53,761 bases of DNA, taken from positions 1-53,761 of IMG/VR virus record IMGVR_UViG_3300050015_000366; one strand, given 5' to 3'. Positions 16,924 to 21,858 of this stretch are shown in pieces (positions within the stretch are counted from its first letter, which is position 1; each line of letters begins with the position of its first letter). This DNA is from a virus. The notes under the pieces are model-generated. The model saw nothing but the letters and a program-made list of their open reading frames with translations, was not told where the DNA came from and did no database searches. Made by a program: the position numbers and the translations under genes.

Positions 16924-18645
16924 ATGACGTTCCACCTCAGCGACCACTCGGCGCCCGTCGACCTCTCGGCTTTGATCGACACGCGACTGCTCGTTCAGGC
17001 CAACAGCGGCGGCGGCAAGAGCTGGTGCTTGCGGCGCATCCTCGAGCAGACGCACGGGCGGGCGCAGCACCTGGTGATCGACCCAGAGGGCGAGTTTGCC
17101 AGCCTCCGGGAGCGGTTCGACTACGTGCTCGCCGCGCGCCAGGGCGGGGACACGGCCGCAGACCCGCGCTCCGCAAAGCTCCTGGCTGAACGCCTGCTCG
17201 AGCTCGGGGCCTCGGCCGTCCTCGACATCTACGAGCTGAAGGCGCACGAGCGCATCCGGTTCGTGCGCGCCTTCCTCGAGGCGCTGGTCGATGCCCCGAA
17301 GAAGCTCTGGCATCCGGCGCTGGTCGTGGTCGACGAGGCGCACGTCTACTGCCCGCAGGTAGGCGAGGCCGAGAGCGCCGGCGCCGTCATTGACCTGGCG
17401 ACGCGCGGCCGCAAGCGCGGGTTCTGCGCCATCCTCGCTACGCAGCGCCTCTCGAAGCTCCACAAGGACGCCGCGGCGGAGTGCAACAACAAGCTGATCG
17501 GGCGCACTGGCCTCGACGTCGACATGAAGCGCGCCGGCGACGAGCTCGGGTTTACCAAGGACCGGCTCCACGAGCTGCGCGAGCTGGACGCGGGGCACTT
17601 CTTCGCGTTCGGGCCGGCCATCTCCAGGAGCGTAACGAAGGTCCACGTCGGCGGCGTGCAGACGACGCACCCGAAGACGGGCAGCCGGATCGCGTTCACC
17701 GCGCCGCCACCCACAGAGAAGGTCCGCGCGCTGCTTCCGAAGCTGGCCGACCTTCCGGCGGAAGCCGAGGCCCGCCAGAAGACGGTCGAGGACCTCAAGC
17801 GTGAGCTGGCCACGGCGCGCCGCGAGCTGACGATCGCCAGGCAAGCCGCCCCGGCTCCGGCGCCGCCGAAGGTCGAGCGGATCGAGGTTCCGGTTCTGGT
17901 GGACGAAGATCGGGCAGGGCTCCGGGAAGTCGTCCAGTCGCTTCGATCGACCGCGGAAACACTGGGCGCTCGTGCGGACCAAATCGAGGGGGCGCTCCGC
18001 CGAGTAGGCCAGGCGCCGATGGAGCCGCGCGGACTGCGCCCGATGCCGAACGCGACGCGGCAAATCCAGCAGCACGTGGACGGCATGATTGCTCGCGCCG
18101 CGCGGAAGCCTGTGACGCCGTCGCTGCCGCGGCGAGCCGCCGAGTCGAACGGCAATCTCACCGGCCCCGAGCAGCGCATCCTCGACGCGATTGCGTGGCT
18201 CGCGGCGATCGGCGTCTCGGAACCCGAGCAGGCCGCCGTCGCCTTCCTCGCCGGCTACACCTACGGCGGCGGCGCCTTCAACAACCCGCGCGGCTCGCTC
18301 CGCACGAGGGGCCTAGTCGACTACCGGCCAGGGGAGCGCATCGTCCTGACGGTTGATGGTGCCGCCTCGGCCAACGCGCCCGACGCGCCGCTGACCGCCG
18401 AGGAGCTGCAGGCCCGCGTGCTGGCGCGCCTGCCGGGCCCGGAGCAGCGCCTCCTGCGGCCGCTCCTGGCCGCCTACCCTGACGCGCTCAGCAACGAGGA
18501 CCTGGCCGGCCAGGCGAACTACACGCCGAACGCAGGGGCGTTCAACAACCCGAGGGGGCGCCTGCGAAGCCTCGGCCTCATCGACTACCCGCGGCCCGGC
18601 TACGTCGTCGCGAAGCCGCTGCTGTTCCTGGAGGAACGCTCGTGA
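16924..18645 (+). CDS. HerA-like hexameric ATPase/translocase
   Basis: A 573-residue protein. Walker A is NSGGGKS (residues 27-33), preceded by LIDTRLLVQA. Then come LVIDPEGEF, as in the HerA/DUF87 family, Walker B ALVVVDEAHVYCP near residue 135, and the sensor FCAILATQRLSKL. The middle has a coiled coil (about 290-330). The C-terminal 150 residues hold two copies of a winged-helix unit (GGGAFNNPRGSLRTRGLVDY and NAGAFNNPRGRLRSLGLIDY). HerA pumps DNA for end resection with a nuclease. Here Mre11/Rad50-like genes are in the same operon; no NurA homologue is seen. Confidence 0.72.
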   Translation: MTFHLSDHSAPVDLSALIDTRLLVQANSGGGKSWCLRRILEQTHGRAQHLVIDPEGEFASLRERFDYVLAARQGGDTAADPRSAKLLAERLLELGASAVLDIYELKAHERIRFVRAFLEALVDAPKKLWHPALVVVDEAHVYCPQVGEAESAGAVIDLATRGRKRGFCAILATQRLSKLHKDAAAECNNKLIGRTGLDVDMKRAGDELGFTKDRLHELRELDAGHFFAFGPAISRSVTKVHVGGVQTTHPKTGSRIAFTAPPPTEKVRALLPKLADLPAEAEARQKTVEDLKRELATARRELTIARQAAPAPAPPKVERIEVPVLVDEDRAGLREVVQSLRSTAETLGARADQIEGALRRVGQAPMEPRGLRPMPNATRQIQQHVDGMIARAARKPVTPSLPRRAAESNGNLTGPEQRILDAIAWLAAIGVSEPEQAAVAFLAGYTYGGGAFNNPRGSLRTRGLVDYRPGERIVLTVDGAASANAPDAPLTAEELQARVLARLPGPEQRLLRPLLAAYPDALSNEDLAGQANYTPNAGAFNNPRGRLRSLGLIDYPRPGYVVAKPLLFLEERS

Positions 18646-20849
18646 GCGCCTACGCCCTCCGGCCCTATCAGCGTTCCGCCGCCGACGCCGGCGTGGCCTA
18701 CTTGACCAACCCGCGGCTGCGCGACCGGAACGGCATCATCGTCGCGCCGACGGGGTCAGGGAAATCGCTACTGGTCGCCAGCATCGCGACGGCGCTGCCG
18801 GGGCCGTGCATCGTCCTGCAGCCGACCAAGGAGATCCTCGAGCAGAACGCCGCGAAGCTCACAGCCTACGGCTTTCCGCCGGCCCTGTACTCGGCCAGCG
18901 TAGGCCGCAAGGAGATCGGGCGCATCACGCTCGCGACGTTCGGCAGCGTGGTCAAGCAGGCGGAGGCGTTCCGGGACTTCTCGTTCGTGCTCATCGATGA
19001 GTGCTTTGTCGCCGGAACGCTTGTTGATGGTCGCCCAATCGAGAGCGTTCTTCCCGGAGACGTCGTCACGACATACGACCACGAACGGGGGCAGGTCTCG
19101 TCCGGTCGCGTGCTTTCGACGATGAAGCGGCTGAGGCCGGAACGGCTCTGCCGCGTTACGGCTAGTGGCCAGCAAGTCTCGTGTACGCCAAATCATCCGT
19201 TTTTCGTCGAGGGCCACGGCTACACGCGAGCCGACAGCCTTCAGATCGGAGATCGCCTTGCCTACTGGAGTCTACCAACGACCACCGCTCCCGATAGTGC
19301 CGTGCACCCACTGCGGAGCGGACCTGAAGATCAAGAACGGGGCCCAGCATTCCTATTATCGGAAGACCGGGAGGGCTTTTCACCCGGAATGCGGGCGAAG
19401 ACAGGTCTCGGAGAACACGTCCCGGATTATGTCTGGGAGGACGCCGACCCTCAAGGCCAGGGCCGCGTCCAGCGAGCGGATGAAGCGCCGGAATCCGATG
19501 TCCAACCCGCTGATTCGCGCGAAGGTCTCCGGGTCACTGCGCAAGATCGGACACCGTCCGCGCGTTCGGGGCGGGAACGGGTGTCCGATGCCAGAGGCAC
19601 AGCGGTTGCTGCTGGCCCGACTCGGAGAGGGATGGGCCCTGGAATTCGTGGTGAAAACAGGACGTCGAGCCGAGGGGTATCCGCATTGCTACAAGATCGA
19701 CCTGGCGAACCCGGCCCTGATGATCGCGGTCGAGATCGACGGGGGGAGCCACAGTCTATCGAGGCGAGCGGAGGACGAACGGAAAACGGCGTTCTTGACC
19801 TCGCTCGGGTGGAGAGTGTGGAGGTTCTCGAACGAGAGCGTCCTAACCTCTTTGGAGCTGGTTGCGCGGGAGATTACGTTTACAACCTCGAAGTAGCCGA
19901 GCACAACAACTACTTCGCCAACGGTCTCCTCGTCCACAACTGCCACCAGGCCGTCTCGCCGAAGGGCGGCATGGTCAAGGCCTTCCTCGACGTGCTGCAG
20001 CACGCGAGAATTCTCGGATTCACAGCCACGCCGTTCCGGCTCGCGAGCAACTCCTGGGGCTCGACGCTGCGCTTCCTGACCCGGACCCGGCCTCGCATCT
20101 TCCGCGACGTCGTGCACGTCACGCAGATCGCCGAGCTGGTGCGCGGCGGCTTCCTATGCCCCGTCCAGTACGACGTGCGGCCGCTCATCAAACGGGACCG
20201 CCTTCGCTACAACAGCACAGGCGGCGACTACACCGACGCGTCGGTCCAGGCGGCCTTCGCGGAAGTCGGCTTCCCGGGCCAGCTGCGCCGAGGGGTCCAG
20301 CGCGTGCTCGACAGCGGCCGGCAGCACGCCCTGGTGTTCACCCGGTTCGTCGACGAGGCGCAGCAACTCGCGGCGGCGATCCCCGGCGCGGCGGTCGTCA
20401 CTGGCGAGACGCCAGCCGGCGAGCGGGCCCGGATTCTGAACGACTTCAAGGCTGGGCGGATCCGAGTCGTGGCGAACTGCGCTGTCCTACTCGTGGGCTT
20501 CGACTTCCCCGAGCTGGACGCCGTCGTGCTGGCCTCGCCGACCGTCTCCCTGGCCCGCTACTACCAGAGCGTCGGCCGCGGTATTCGCCCGGCGCCGGGC
20601 AAGCGTGATGCCCTGGTCGTGGACCTAGTGGGGACCGTCGAGCAGTTCGGCCACGTCGAGGATCTCGTGCTCGAGCCGGGCGGTGTGACAGGTGAGAAGT
20701 GGGTGGTCAAGAGCAGGGGGCGAGAGTTGACGAATTGCTACTACGGCGACCAGGCGAGCCAGGAGAAGCGGAAGAAGTCGGCGGAGTTCTGGAGCGGGCG
20801 GCGGGGTGGACAGGCGAGGTCACAGGCGGCGGACAACGGACGATTTTAG
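18642..20849 (+). CDS. SF2 DECH-box helicase interrupted by an intein
   Basis: A 735-residue precursor starting with GTG at a GTGA overlap. The N-extein (120 residues) has the Q-like LRPYQR and motif I APTGSGKS (35-42). The intein follows DE119-120 of motif II, and the C-extein resumes CHQ, restoring DECH. The C-extein (302 residues) holds motif III FTATPFR, motif IV ALVFTRFVDEAQQLA and motif VI YYQSVGRGIRP. The spliced protein would be 422 residues, the size of phage helicases related to UvsW and restriction R subunits. It probably remodels forks and recombination intermediates. Without splicing motif II is destroyed, so splicing is required. Confidence 0.85.
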   Translation: MSAYALRPYQRSAADAGVAYLTNPRLRDRNGIIVAPTGSGKSLLVASIATALPGPCIVLQPTKEILEQNAAKLTAYGFPPALYSASVGRKEIGRITLATFGSVVKQAEAFRDFSFVLIDECFVAGTLVDGRPIESVLPGDVVTTYDHERGQVSSGRVLSTMKRLRPERLCRVTASGQQVSCTPNHPFFVEGHGYTRADSLQIGDRLAYWSLPTTTAPDSAVHPLRSGPEDQERGPAFLLSEDREGFSPGMRAKTGLGEHVPDYVWEDADPQGQGRVQRADEAPESDVQPADSREGLRVTAQDRTPSARSGRERVSDARGTAVAAGPTRRGMGPGIRGENRTSSRGVSALLQDRPGEPGPDDRGRDRRGEPQSIEASGGRTENGVLDLARVESVEVLERERPNLFGAGCAGDYVYNLEVAEHNNYFANGLLVHNCHQAVSPKGGMVKAFLDVLQHARILGFTATPFRLASNSWGSTLRFLTRTRPRIFRDVVHVTQIAELVRGGFLCPVQYDVRPLIKRDRLRYNSTGGDYTDASVQAAFAEVGFPGQLRRGVQRVLDSGRQHALVFTRFVDEAQQLAAAIPGAAVVTGETPAGERARILNDFKAGRIRVVANCAVLLVGFDFPELDAVVLASPTVSLARYYQSVGRGIRPAPGKRDALVVDLVGTVEQFGHVEDLVLEPGGVTGEKWVVKSRGRELTNCYYGDQASQEKRKKSAEFWSGRRGGQARSQAADNGRF
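19248..19260 (+). promoter_or_regulatory. Internal ribosome binding site and TTG start of the nested endonuclease
   Basis: GGAG (19248-19251) precedes TTG (19258-19260) with a 6-nt spacer. The site lies inside intein codons for IGDRLA, that is, directly at the end of the N-terminal splicing domain where an in-frame endonuclease would normally begin. A GTG at 19165 opens the same frame earlier but lacks a good Shine-Dalgarno and would overlap block B. Confidence 0.6.
19258..19896 (+). CDS. DUF559/Vsr-like homing endonuclease nested in the +1 frame of the intein
   Basis: A 212-residue protein, entirely inside the helicase intein but in another frame. Residues 16-45 carry Cys residues (CTHC...PEC) like a zinc finger. 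Residues 58-108 have a NUMOD-like linker (RMKRRNPMSNPLIRAKVSGS, GHRPRVRGGNG). Residues 111-195 are the Vsr/DUF559-type nuclease: Glu113, Asp148 in YKIDLANP, Glu159 and Asp161-G-G-S-H165 in IAVEIDGGSHS, then LGWRVWRFSN. This is the EDxHD/Vsr-like nuclease class known from some phage homing enzymes. It stops at TAG 19894-19896, opposite intein block F. Expected role: cutting intein-less helicase alleles. It would be made by internal initiation on the same mRNA. Confidence 0.82.
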   Translation: MPTGVYQRPPLPIVPCTHCGADLKIKNGAQHSYYRKTGRAFHPECGRRQVSENTSRIMSGRTPTLKARAASSERMKRRNPMSNPLIRAKVSGSLRKIGHRPRVRGGNGCPMPEAQRLLLARLGEGWALEFVVKTGRRAEGYPHCYKIDLANPALMIAVEIDGGSHSLSRRAEDERKTAFLTSLGWRVWRFSNESVLTSLELVAREITFTTSK

Positions 20850-20862
20850 GGGCGGGGAATTC

Positions 20863-21858
20863 ATGCCGGACGATCGGATGTTACATCGGCGAGCGGGTCA
20901 CTCGGAGAGGGTGTCGGGGCTGTCAGACTTCGACTACAGGGTCTGGACCACCTACTTACTCGCCGCCGACGACTTCGGAATTATGCGGGCGACGGCAGTG
21001 ACCCTCCAGGCAGCGGACGAGTCACTCGCGAAAAGGCCTCCCGGCACCGTGCAGGCGGCCCTGGAACGGGTGCTCCTGGTTGGCCTGGTCGGCGTGTTCA
21101 CGCACCAGCGCCAGCGGTTCGTCTACCAAGCCGACTGGCAGGATTGGCAGAAGGTCAAGTATCCGCGGGAAACGCAGAACCCCGCGCCGCCATTGGACTT
21201 ACTCGCGAGGTGCAGCCCCGAGACTCGGGAGTTGTTCCAGAAGCACCCGGGCGGGAACAAGCCGAGGAGCGGGAAAAATTCTCCGAAGATTTCCGAAACG
21301 TTGGGGGAAAATTCTGGAAAAGTTCCGGAAACTTTTCCGCCCAACGCGCGCGCGCGTACGCCGTTAGCCGTTAGCCGTAAGCCATTAGCCGTTAGCCATA
21401 CGCCGTCAGCCGGCGGCCAGGAGGCTGCGCCTCCGACGACGGGCGCGCCACCGGACGACCCTCCCAACGATGACATCCCGACGGACGAGGAACTGCCCGA
21501 TCCCGAGCCTCAAGCCTTGAGCCCCGAGCCTCCTCCTCGGTCCGTTCCGCGAATCGCGTCCGGCCAGCACAAGCATCACGCGCACTGCGACCTGGTCTGC
21601 GTGCCCGCGTTCCTGCACGCGGAATTCCGACAGGCCCTCAACCGGCCGAACGACCCGGACGGCGTCGATGCCGAACTCGTCGCCGGCTACACCGCGCACT
21701 GCCAGGGTTGGCCAGAGGGCGAGGCCACCGGCGACGCCGTCTCATTCTGGCGGGCGTGGTTCCGAGCGCGCTACCCGGCACCGACAACCCGGCAGATCCG
21801 GCAGGTGACCGAGCGCCAGCGCAACGCGGAGTGGCTCGCTAAGGAGGGCATCCGGTGA
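20863..21858 (+). CDS. Lambda O-like replication initiator candidate
   Basis: A 331-residue protein. The ATG at 20863 follows GGGGCGGGG; the open frame begins slightly earlier without a better start. Residues 1-110 (SDFDYRVWTTYLLAADDFGIM; LERVLLVGLVGVFTHQRQRFVYQADWQDWQ) resemble the winged N-terminal domain of phage replisome organisers. The middle, about residues 138-235, is a low-complexity linker whose DNA contains iterons. The C-terminal domain (about 240-331) has FLHAEFRQALN and a Trp-rich SFWRAWFRARYP. It is followed by a possible helicase-loader gene, the O/P arrangement of lambda. Confidence 0.6.
   Translation: MPDDRMLHRRAGHSERVSGLSDFDYRVWTTYLLAADDFGIMRATAVTLQAADESLAKRPPGTVQAALERVLLVGLVGVFTHQRQRFVYQADWQDWQKVKYPRETQNPAPPLDLLARCSPETRELFQKHPGGNKPRSGKNSPKISETLGENSGKVPETFPPNARARTPLAVSRKPLAVSHTPSAGGQEAAPPTTGAPPDDPPNDDIPTDEELPDPEPQALSPEPPPRSVPRIASGQHKHHAHCDLVCVPAFLHAEFRQALNRPNDPDGVDAELVAGYTAHCQGWPEGEATGDAVSFWRAWFRARYPAPTTRQIRQVTERQRNAEWLAKEGIR
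21271..21414 (+). other. Candidate replication origin inside the initiator gene
   Basis: Two adjacent parts are seen. An AT-rich stretch (21271-21338) in this GC-rich genome contains repeated GGAAAA and TTCCG words and a 9-bp inverted repeat GGAAAAGTT (21316-21324)/AACTTTTCC (21330-21338). Next to it, 21359-21414 is eight head-to-tail 7-mers of the type AGCCGTT (AGCCGTT, AGCCGTA, AGCCATT, AGCCGTT, AGCCATA and variants). This iterons-plus-AT-rich design inside an O-like gene is that of lambda ori. Confidence 0.55.

Follow-up and report, generated by a model that had tools for sequence, protein, structure and literature searches.

Can a single stretch of DNA encode, in two different reading frames, both the C-terminal splicing region of an intein and the end of a homing endonuclease? 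This question is raised by a helicase gene in a virus record of 53,761 bases, the whole of which was analysed and is called the window here. The original prediction, made from the letters alone, was that frame 0 from position 19791 reads VLDLARVESVEVLERERPNLFGAGCAGDYVYNLEV, a C-terminal splicing region, while the +1 frame reads FLTSLGWRVWRFSNESVLTSLELVAREITFTTSK, a standard ending of DUF559 nucleases, so that two recognisable family segments would share about 105 bases. Our analysis finds the coordinates and both readings to be exact, and Pfam assigns frame 0 to Intein_splicing (5e-10) and the +1 frame to DUF559 (1e-10). The features of the locus, all inside the helicase ORF, are as follows (a slash marks a splice junction here and below).

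18642..20849, + strand: helicase gene (DEAD/ResIII and Helicase_C) with an in-frame intein; frame 0, single ORF of 735 amino acids
19002..19940, + strand: intein of 313 codons from Cys1 to the C-terminal HN, followed by the +1 Cys; helicase motif II, DE/CHQ
19002..19271, + strand: N-terminal half of the HINT splicing domain; model residues 1-90, pLDDT about 95
19258..19896, + strand: gene of a DUF559/EDxHD-type homing endonuclease (HEN) in the +1 frame; stop TAG 19894-19896
19272..19781, + strand: frame-0 linker across the nuclease gene, stop-free; unstructured in the model (residues 91-260, pLDDT about 46)
19303..19392, + strand: nuclease N-terminus resembling a zinc finger (C..C, then C), from the alignment
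19732..19776, + strand: active-site stretch of the nuclease, EIDGGSH...D (E, D, H, D); across 76 HENs neither D nor the H varies, and E is at least 90% conserved
19782..19940, + strand: C-terminal half of the HINT splicing domain
19791..19896, + strand: dual-coded stretch, constrained both as the end of the nuclease (+1) and as C-terminal splicing domain (frame 0)
19813..19830, + strand: 18 bases predicted to encode the nuclease core beta-strand RVWRFS, within the intein strand at 19791-19832 (RVESVEV); AlphaFold models

The intein interrupts the helicase at ...LIDE/CFVAGT...LLVHN/CHQA and carries C1, TPNH and HN/C, and C1, T62, H65, N313 and C314 are invariant among the 41 inteins aligned. 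Whether the HEN starts at 19258 or at 19297, its whole ORF is nested in the intein, and frame 0 runs uninterrupted across it. Thus, the predicted dual coding of about 105 bases is borne out by strong two-frame constraint in that stretch, but it is not confined to it, as the entire nuclease gene of about 600 bases is nested. The two segments were proposed to be genuine family segments, and the alignments agree on both sides. Free-standing relatives of the nuclease extend about 20 residues beyond LGWRVWRF, so the family does not stop earlier, and in 76 sequences the motif's G, W, R and N either do not vary or reach at least 90% conservation. On the intein side, 41 sequences show little or no variation at the Y, V, H, N and C of VYNLEV...HNC. 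In the 158 nested relatives measured, the HEN and intein C-domain profiles overlap by a median of 104 nt (IQR 94-126; two of 160 nested loci, which have no measurable overlap end, are excluded), close to the predicted length. The overlap is not universal, as the +1 HEN of locus L107 ends ahead of its splicing block. Downstream of the helicase, the next ORF of the window contains a heptamer tandem repeat, GCCGTTA, in 7.6 copies (21355-21412).

Structural models are consistent with two folded proteins. The HEN modelled from the TTG at 19258 has an AlphaFold pLDDT of 91.5, and its nearest solved folds are I-Bth0305I (3r3p) and 3hrl. The best PDB match is I-Bth0305I, with a Foldseek probability of 1.00 and a profile match at E 0.0077; in the Foldseek search no match of the HEN reached E <= 0.001, the best value being 1.9e-3 for 3r3p. 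I-Bth0305I is an intron-encoded EDxHD homing endonuclease (PMC3943268); it has the E, D, H, D pattern in common with the window HEN at about 20% identity, while the window HEN is nested in an intein. In the frame-0 model, residues 1-90 and most of 261-314 form a confidently predicted HINT core around the linker of low pLDDT, and the PDB matches of this model, 30 of which have E <= 0.001, are mostly inteins, with some intein-like and hedgehog HINT domains. Intein strand 264-277 in this model corresponds to 19791-19832 and lies inside the HINT core, in agreement with the predicted splicing segment, and nuclease strand 186-191 corresponds to 19813-19830. The models thus suggest that the same bases encode a core strand of both proteins.

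Sequence surveys reveal, beyond what the original prediction noticed, that this arrangement belongs to a conserved family and recurs in many phages that are only distantly related. A tblastn search with the nuclease matched 40 phage records, and in all eight phage genomes examined among them (Vibrio phages CP-T1, 104E43.1, 159E43-1b, K391, 1.194.O and 1.088.O, Pseudomonas phage MR14 and Corynebacterium phage phi673) a single annotated CDS runs uninterrupted across the nuclease, which lies in the +1 frame. Further loci came from scanning IMG/VR and one-genome-per-species contigs with profiles, followed by hmmsearch with intein-N, intein-C and nuclease profiles. The first set of 121 loci comprised 98 with one ORF and a +1 HEN, four with the HEN in frame, three with only the C-half (+1) and 16 with no intein. 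The enlarged set held 295 loci, eight of which (L299-L306, found with a split C-half) lack a HEN and do not enter the HEN counts. The other 287 were made up of 229 with one ORF and a +1 HEN, eight with a stop between the halves (+1), eight with one ORF and the HEN in frame, seven C-only in +1, five N-only in +1, one C-only in frame and 29 with no intein. After thinning to less than 90% HEN identity, 197 loci remained: 160 with one ORF and a +1 HEN (the nested loci), four with a stop between the halves (+1), seven in frame, three C-only (+1) and 23 with no intein. Both intein halves are present in 171 of these 197, with the HEN in +1 in 164 and in frame in seven, proportions that are no census, as recruitment used similarity to nested HENs and intein profiles rebuilt from nested loci. 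A HEN in phase +2 was looked for and found in none of the 197. The intein ORF is unbroken in 160 of the 164 +1 loci. At least 146 of the 160 nested loci have the intein at DE/x; C1 is present in 158 and TxxH in 139, the latter not being found within the matched N-terminal stretch in the other 21. Nested loci also occur on bacterial contigs, among them those of Akkermansia, Ktedonobacter, Riflebacteria, a planctomycete and Lachnospiraceae. Matches to the intein N-half in Ruminococcus phages and MT836326 were rejected, since they resemble HINT domains of other large proteins rather than helicase inteins.

The codons reveal how the two readings constrain each other. Over the body of the HEN, third positions are mostly free except where a stop would arise in frame 0 (per-column data); for example, the conserved Tyr before Lys has C as its third base in 84 of 84 loci. 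Frame 0 outside the last 105 or so bases of the HEN is thus constrained mainly through stop avoidance, whereas third positions in the overlap track the intein reading. The exact motif G[WF]x[VIT]xR[FILVY] is kept in 148 of the 160 nested loci and a looser form in 151, and the codon tests were run on these (12 and nine loci, respectively, lacking the motif). GGG encodes the invariant Gly of GWxVxRF in 126 of 148 loci, a count that the same genes would put at 50.8 (z 13.9). For the Arg, 112 of 148 loci use AGR (64.4 expected, z 9.0) and the other 36 use CGN; thinning to less than 45% HEN identity leaves GGG in 22 of 26 (8.7 expected, z 5.8) and AGR in 20 of 26 (12.2 expected, z 3.5). In the intein frame GGG-TGG supplies the Val and xxG-AGR the Glu of RVESVEV. 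When the intein reading of each locus is scored by leave-one-out under synonymous shuffling, the combined Z values are 21.9 and 27.2 in the two halves of the overlap, where the score is positive in 84/84 and 83/84 loci, and 3.2, 5.1, 2.7 and 9.5 elsewhere; because shared ancestry inflates Z everywhere, and may be the source of the values up to 9.5, it is the contrast between regions that counts. The window taken by itself shows this too, its choice among synonymous codons in the overlap leaning towards the intein reading (z = 3.2 and 2.9). These results demonstrate that codon choice in the overlap of about 105 bases is set by both proteins.

Relatives without a nested intein serve as controls. 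In the free-standing HENs L017, L078, L092, L099, L104 and L108 the -1 frame is closed, being open for just 5-39 codons in mid-gene. Among the 12 loci that have the motif and no intein, GGG is found in two (1.7 expected), so the Gly codon effect seen in nested loci is absent, and an RVESVEV-like pattern occurs in one, as against 100 of 151 nested loci. AGR, present in nine of these 12 (7.5 expected), is common in free-standing HENs too, which leaves the Gly codon and the -1-frame pattern as the better controls. The synonymous-constraint check proposed with the original prediction is strongly positive in the overlap, its observation is confirmed and its interpretation, an unusual overlap of two conserved domains, is supported. 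The two HENs of this set with GGG, on a Polaromonas glacialis contig (L105:2755-3479) and a viral contig (L142:2800-3642) with no intein detected, read VEGVEVL and VESFEVL in the -1 frame and retain GGG and AGG codons, and these are likely relics of a lost nested intein. In four further loci (L195:2986-3630, L092:2977-3663, L231:2794-3426 and L017:1513-2151) a free-standing HEN lies immediately 5' of a helicase and overlaps its open frame; no intein was detected in these downstream helicases, which are presumably the target genes of the nucleases.

Could such a pattern arise without two functional frames? One explanation is that frame 0 is open by accident, as the shadow of a GC-rich gene, or that sequencing indels have broken an in-frame intein-HEN fusion. 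The window is indeed GC-rich (0.63 over the HEN), a composition in which long shadow frames are common, but it has no frame-0 stop across the HEN where 5.1 are expected from synonymous shuffling of its own codons, in line with the original claim that this is not one gene over a random shadow. Over the HENs of 84 non-redundant nested loci, with GC from 0.28 to 0.65, there are no frame-0 stops against 648 expected when each HEN protein and its codon usage are kept under synonymous shuffling, and although these loci had been pre-classed as one ORF, no +1 locus of the first set needed to be dropped for a stop; the third frame of the same loci has 1234 stops against 1154 expected. Nor would indels readily produce the same phase in the annotated phage genomes of different laboratories (the eight examined, of 40 records), or a nuclease whose own stop falls within the splicing block. 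The stop and codon-choice tests rule this explanation out for practical purposes. Another possibility is that only frame 0 is functional in many loci, the nuclease being a decaying passenger that the intein frame keeps readable. It is well recognised that intein nucleases often decay after fixation, and the zinc finger of the window HEN, a presumed metal-binding unit, is without one cysteine that its relatives keep. Against this stand D161, H165 and D173, which are invariant in the 76 aligned HENs together with the flanking G and S (E159 is at least 90% conserved), the retention of the exact GWxVxRF-type motif noted above, and a frame-0 linker without predicted structure, which cannot account for the conservation of the nuclease body. 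We consider decay on such a scale very improbable.

A further alternative concerns how the nuclease is made, namely as a fusion with the N-terminal half of the intein through programmed +1 ribosomal frameshifting. The out-of-frame phase is always +1 (164/164), as common descent would also predict, and many loci have a +1 frame that stays open for a considerable distance before the nuclease (55 codons in the window). Yet 26 of the 130 loci with a full 5' end have a stop in the HEN frame no more than 12 codons upstream, and a start codon is present in every one of these 26; Shine-Dalgarno (SD) energies at HEN starts are also stronger than in controls (median -4.55 versus -2.60, P = 2.5e-6), and free-standing relatives must have a start of their own. 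Frameshifting is thus unlikely, if somewhat less so than a decaying passenger. For the window the candidate starts are TTG 19258, preceded by an SD-like GGAG (-6.6 kcal/mol) and the only one with a good SD, and GTG 19297. A start codon is within reach in 92 of the 130 loci, and none was found within 12 codons in the other 38, some of which have a second upstream zinc finger. Such a second zinc-finger-like CxxC...C unit, seen upstream of the first in some nested HENs (L005:1845-2000, L009:1758-1950), implies a nuclease start further inside the N-terminal splicing half.

Direct comparison of phage genomes shows the intein to be present or absent at one and the same site. Vibrio phage CP-T1 and vB_VchM-138 differ by its exact presence or absence, with 568 of 600 flanking bases identical, and vB_VchM-138 reads DEAHH where CP-T1 has DE/intein/CHH; SppYZU01 is a second intein-free homologue. 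The related Vibrio phages K453, K459 and 13VV501A have short inteins without a nuclease at the same helicase site, and the 13VV501A helicase (L130:1652-4153) has, besides that in motif II, a second mini-intein-like insertion in its Walker A motif (GAGK/C...HN/T). Catalytic residues that are intact in both products, two-frame constraint and presence or absence at the same site are thus all observed. The reading we favour, to which we give a probability of about 0.9, is that of an intein spliced in cis, with a separately made HEN nested in its +1 frame, that homes into helicase motif II. A mobile intein would occupy this motif of the viral helicase with the HEN gene nested in +1 and not fused in frame. 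Translation of frame 0 would give the N-terminal part of the helicase, a HINT half, a disordered linker corresponding to the out-of-frame nuclease gene, the other HINT half and the C-terminal part of the helicase, and cis-splicing, to judge from the intact catalytic residues and the fold, would yield active helicase. The HEN would be a separate translation product, most likely begun at an internal start codon close to where the N-terminal splicing half ends, its last 35 or so codons sharing about 105 bases with the C-terminal splicing domain, and would cut intein-free helicase genes at the DE/xH motif, so that the element is copied in.

Some relatives of the nested loci, which the original prediction did not foresee, are fractured. 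In L174 (the same contig as L249 and L298) and in L250/L251/L289 (one lineage from three metagenomes, 663-672 of 672 bases identical), the intein N-half terminates at a stop near the HEN start, and a candidate start of the C-half, with weak SD (-0.9 and -0.4), lies within the HEN. Frame 0 over the HEN has 14 stops in L174 (16.7 expected) and 25 in L250 (24.6 expected), whereas the nested sisters L031 and L036 have none against 11.3 and 8.9 expected, which ties stop avoidance to an intein that is still a single chain. Both fractured lineages keep the C-terminal overlap (RVESVEI/RVESIEI with GGG and AGA). In these two lineages, then, the split of the intein has freed the linker frame from stop avoidance while the overlap was retained. 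In a tree of 185 of the 197 HENs (twelve of fewer than 120 residues were dropped), L031, L036, L174 and L250 group with support 0.968 and the fractured pair with 0.995; because deep nodes are poorly supported, the nested-to-fractured direction rests mainly on this one sister group. Two otherwise open nested loci, not counted as fractured, have a single frame-0 stop each, L154 at 2982 and L280 in the linker, which may be early splits or sequence errors; in L154 an ATG with an upstream AGAAGG follows directly after the stop, possibly marking an early split.

An in-frame nuclease between the HINT halves is the textbook design of an intein, and the in-frame DUF559-type inteins L114, L115, L118 and L111 have it as one polypeptide. 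L126 and L128 are also ordinary in-frame inteins, their nucleases appearing HNH-like and LAGLIDADG-like by eye. In L114 and L111 (archaeal and Bacteroidota contigs) the nuclease strand lies ahead of the C-terminal splicing strand, in series, whereas the present loci share those bases. The fractured genes of Dassa et al. (2009) reportedly comprise split inteins with a free-standing nuclease, partly Vsr-like, between the halves; L174 and L250 share this layout, and the nuclease families are reportedly related. Unlike such fractured genes, the 160 nested loci have one continuous intein frame through the nuclease, and the window helicase-intein is one unbroken ORF where fractured halves lie on separate ORFs. 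Outside small viruses, it is rare for two conserved domains, each recognisable on its own, to overlap on the same strand. All HEN domains of inteins have been placed at one insertion site, according to one structural paper (PMC6801210). Out-of-frame nuclease insertions are described in the ShiLan and Pacc40 methylases, where the authors found no splicing domain; the ShiLan insertion carries an HNH nuclease, adds no stop to the host gene and has a proposed GTG start with no clear RBS (PMC11855218). It is the nearest published case found and has in common with the present loci a homing-type nuclease out of frame in an insertion that leaves the host gene stop-free, but ShiLan has an HNH nuclease and no splicing domain or second conserved domain on the same bases, where we find an intein and a DUF559/EDxHD nuclease. 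An element of the ShiLan type was accordingly rejected as a full explanation, given the Intein_splicing match of the window in frame 0. A phage announcement mentions an out-of-frame HNH in a methylase (PMC12613952). Our literature search, with limited coverage of subscription papers and bioRxiv, found out-of-frame nucleases in these two sources only, and no report of an intein with one.

In summary, nature has replicated this arrangement in 160 diverged nested loci and has supplied controls for it in their free-standing and fractured relatives. The arrangement runs counter to the usual picture of the intein nuclease as a domain of the intein and explains why such genes are annotated as one 'helicase' with the nuclease missed. 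The nested loci are a natural example of the gene entanglement that synthetic biologists construct deliberately. They also offer a concrete route from contiguous to split inteins: a HEN that landed out of frame and whose end overwrote the splicing block would be locked together with the intein, and loss of read-through, by a stop after the N-half and a C-half start within the HEN, would leave a split intein and a 'free-standing' nuclease overlapping the C-half. That out-of-frame nesting is the stage giving rise to fractured genes, and hence to natural split inteins, is a proposal for which we see the balance as even. If it is true, the nuclease would be entangled with an essential gene, and its usual decay should slow.
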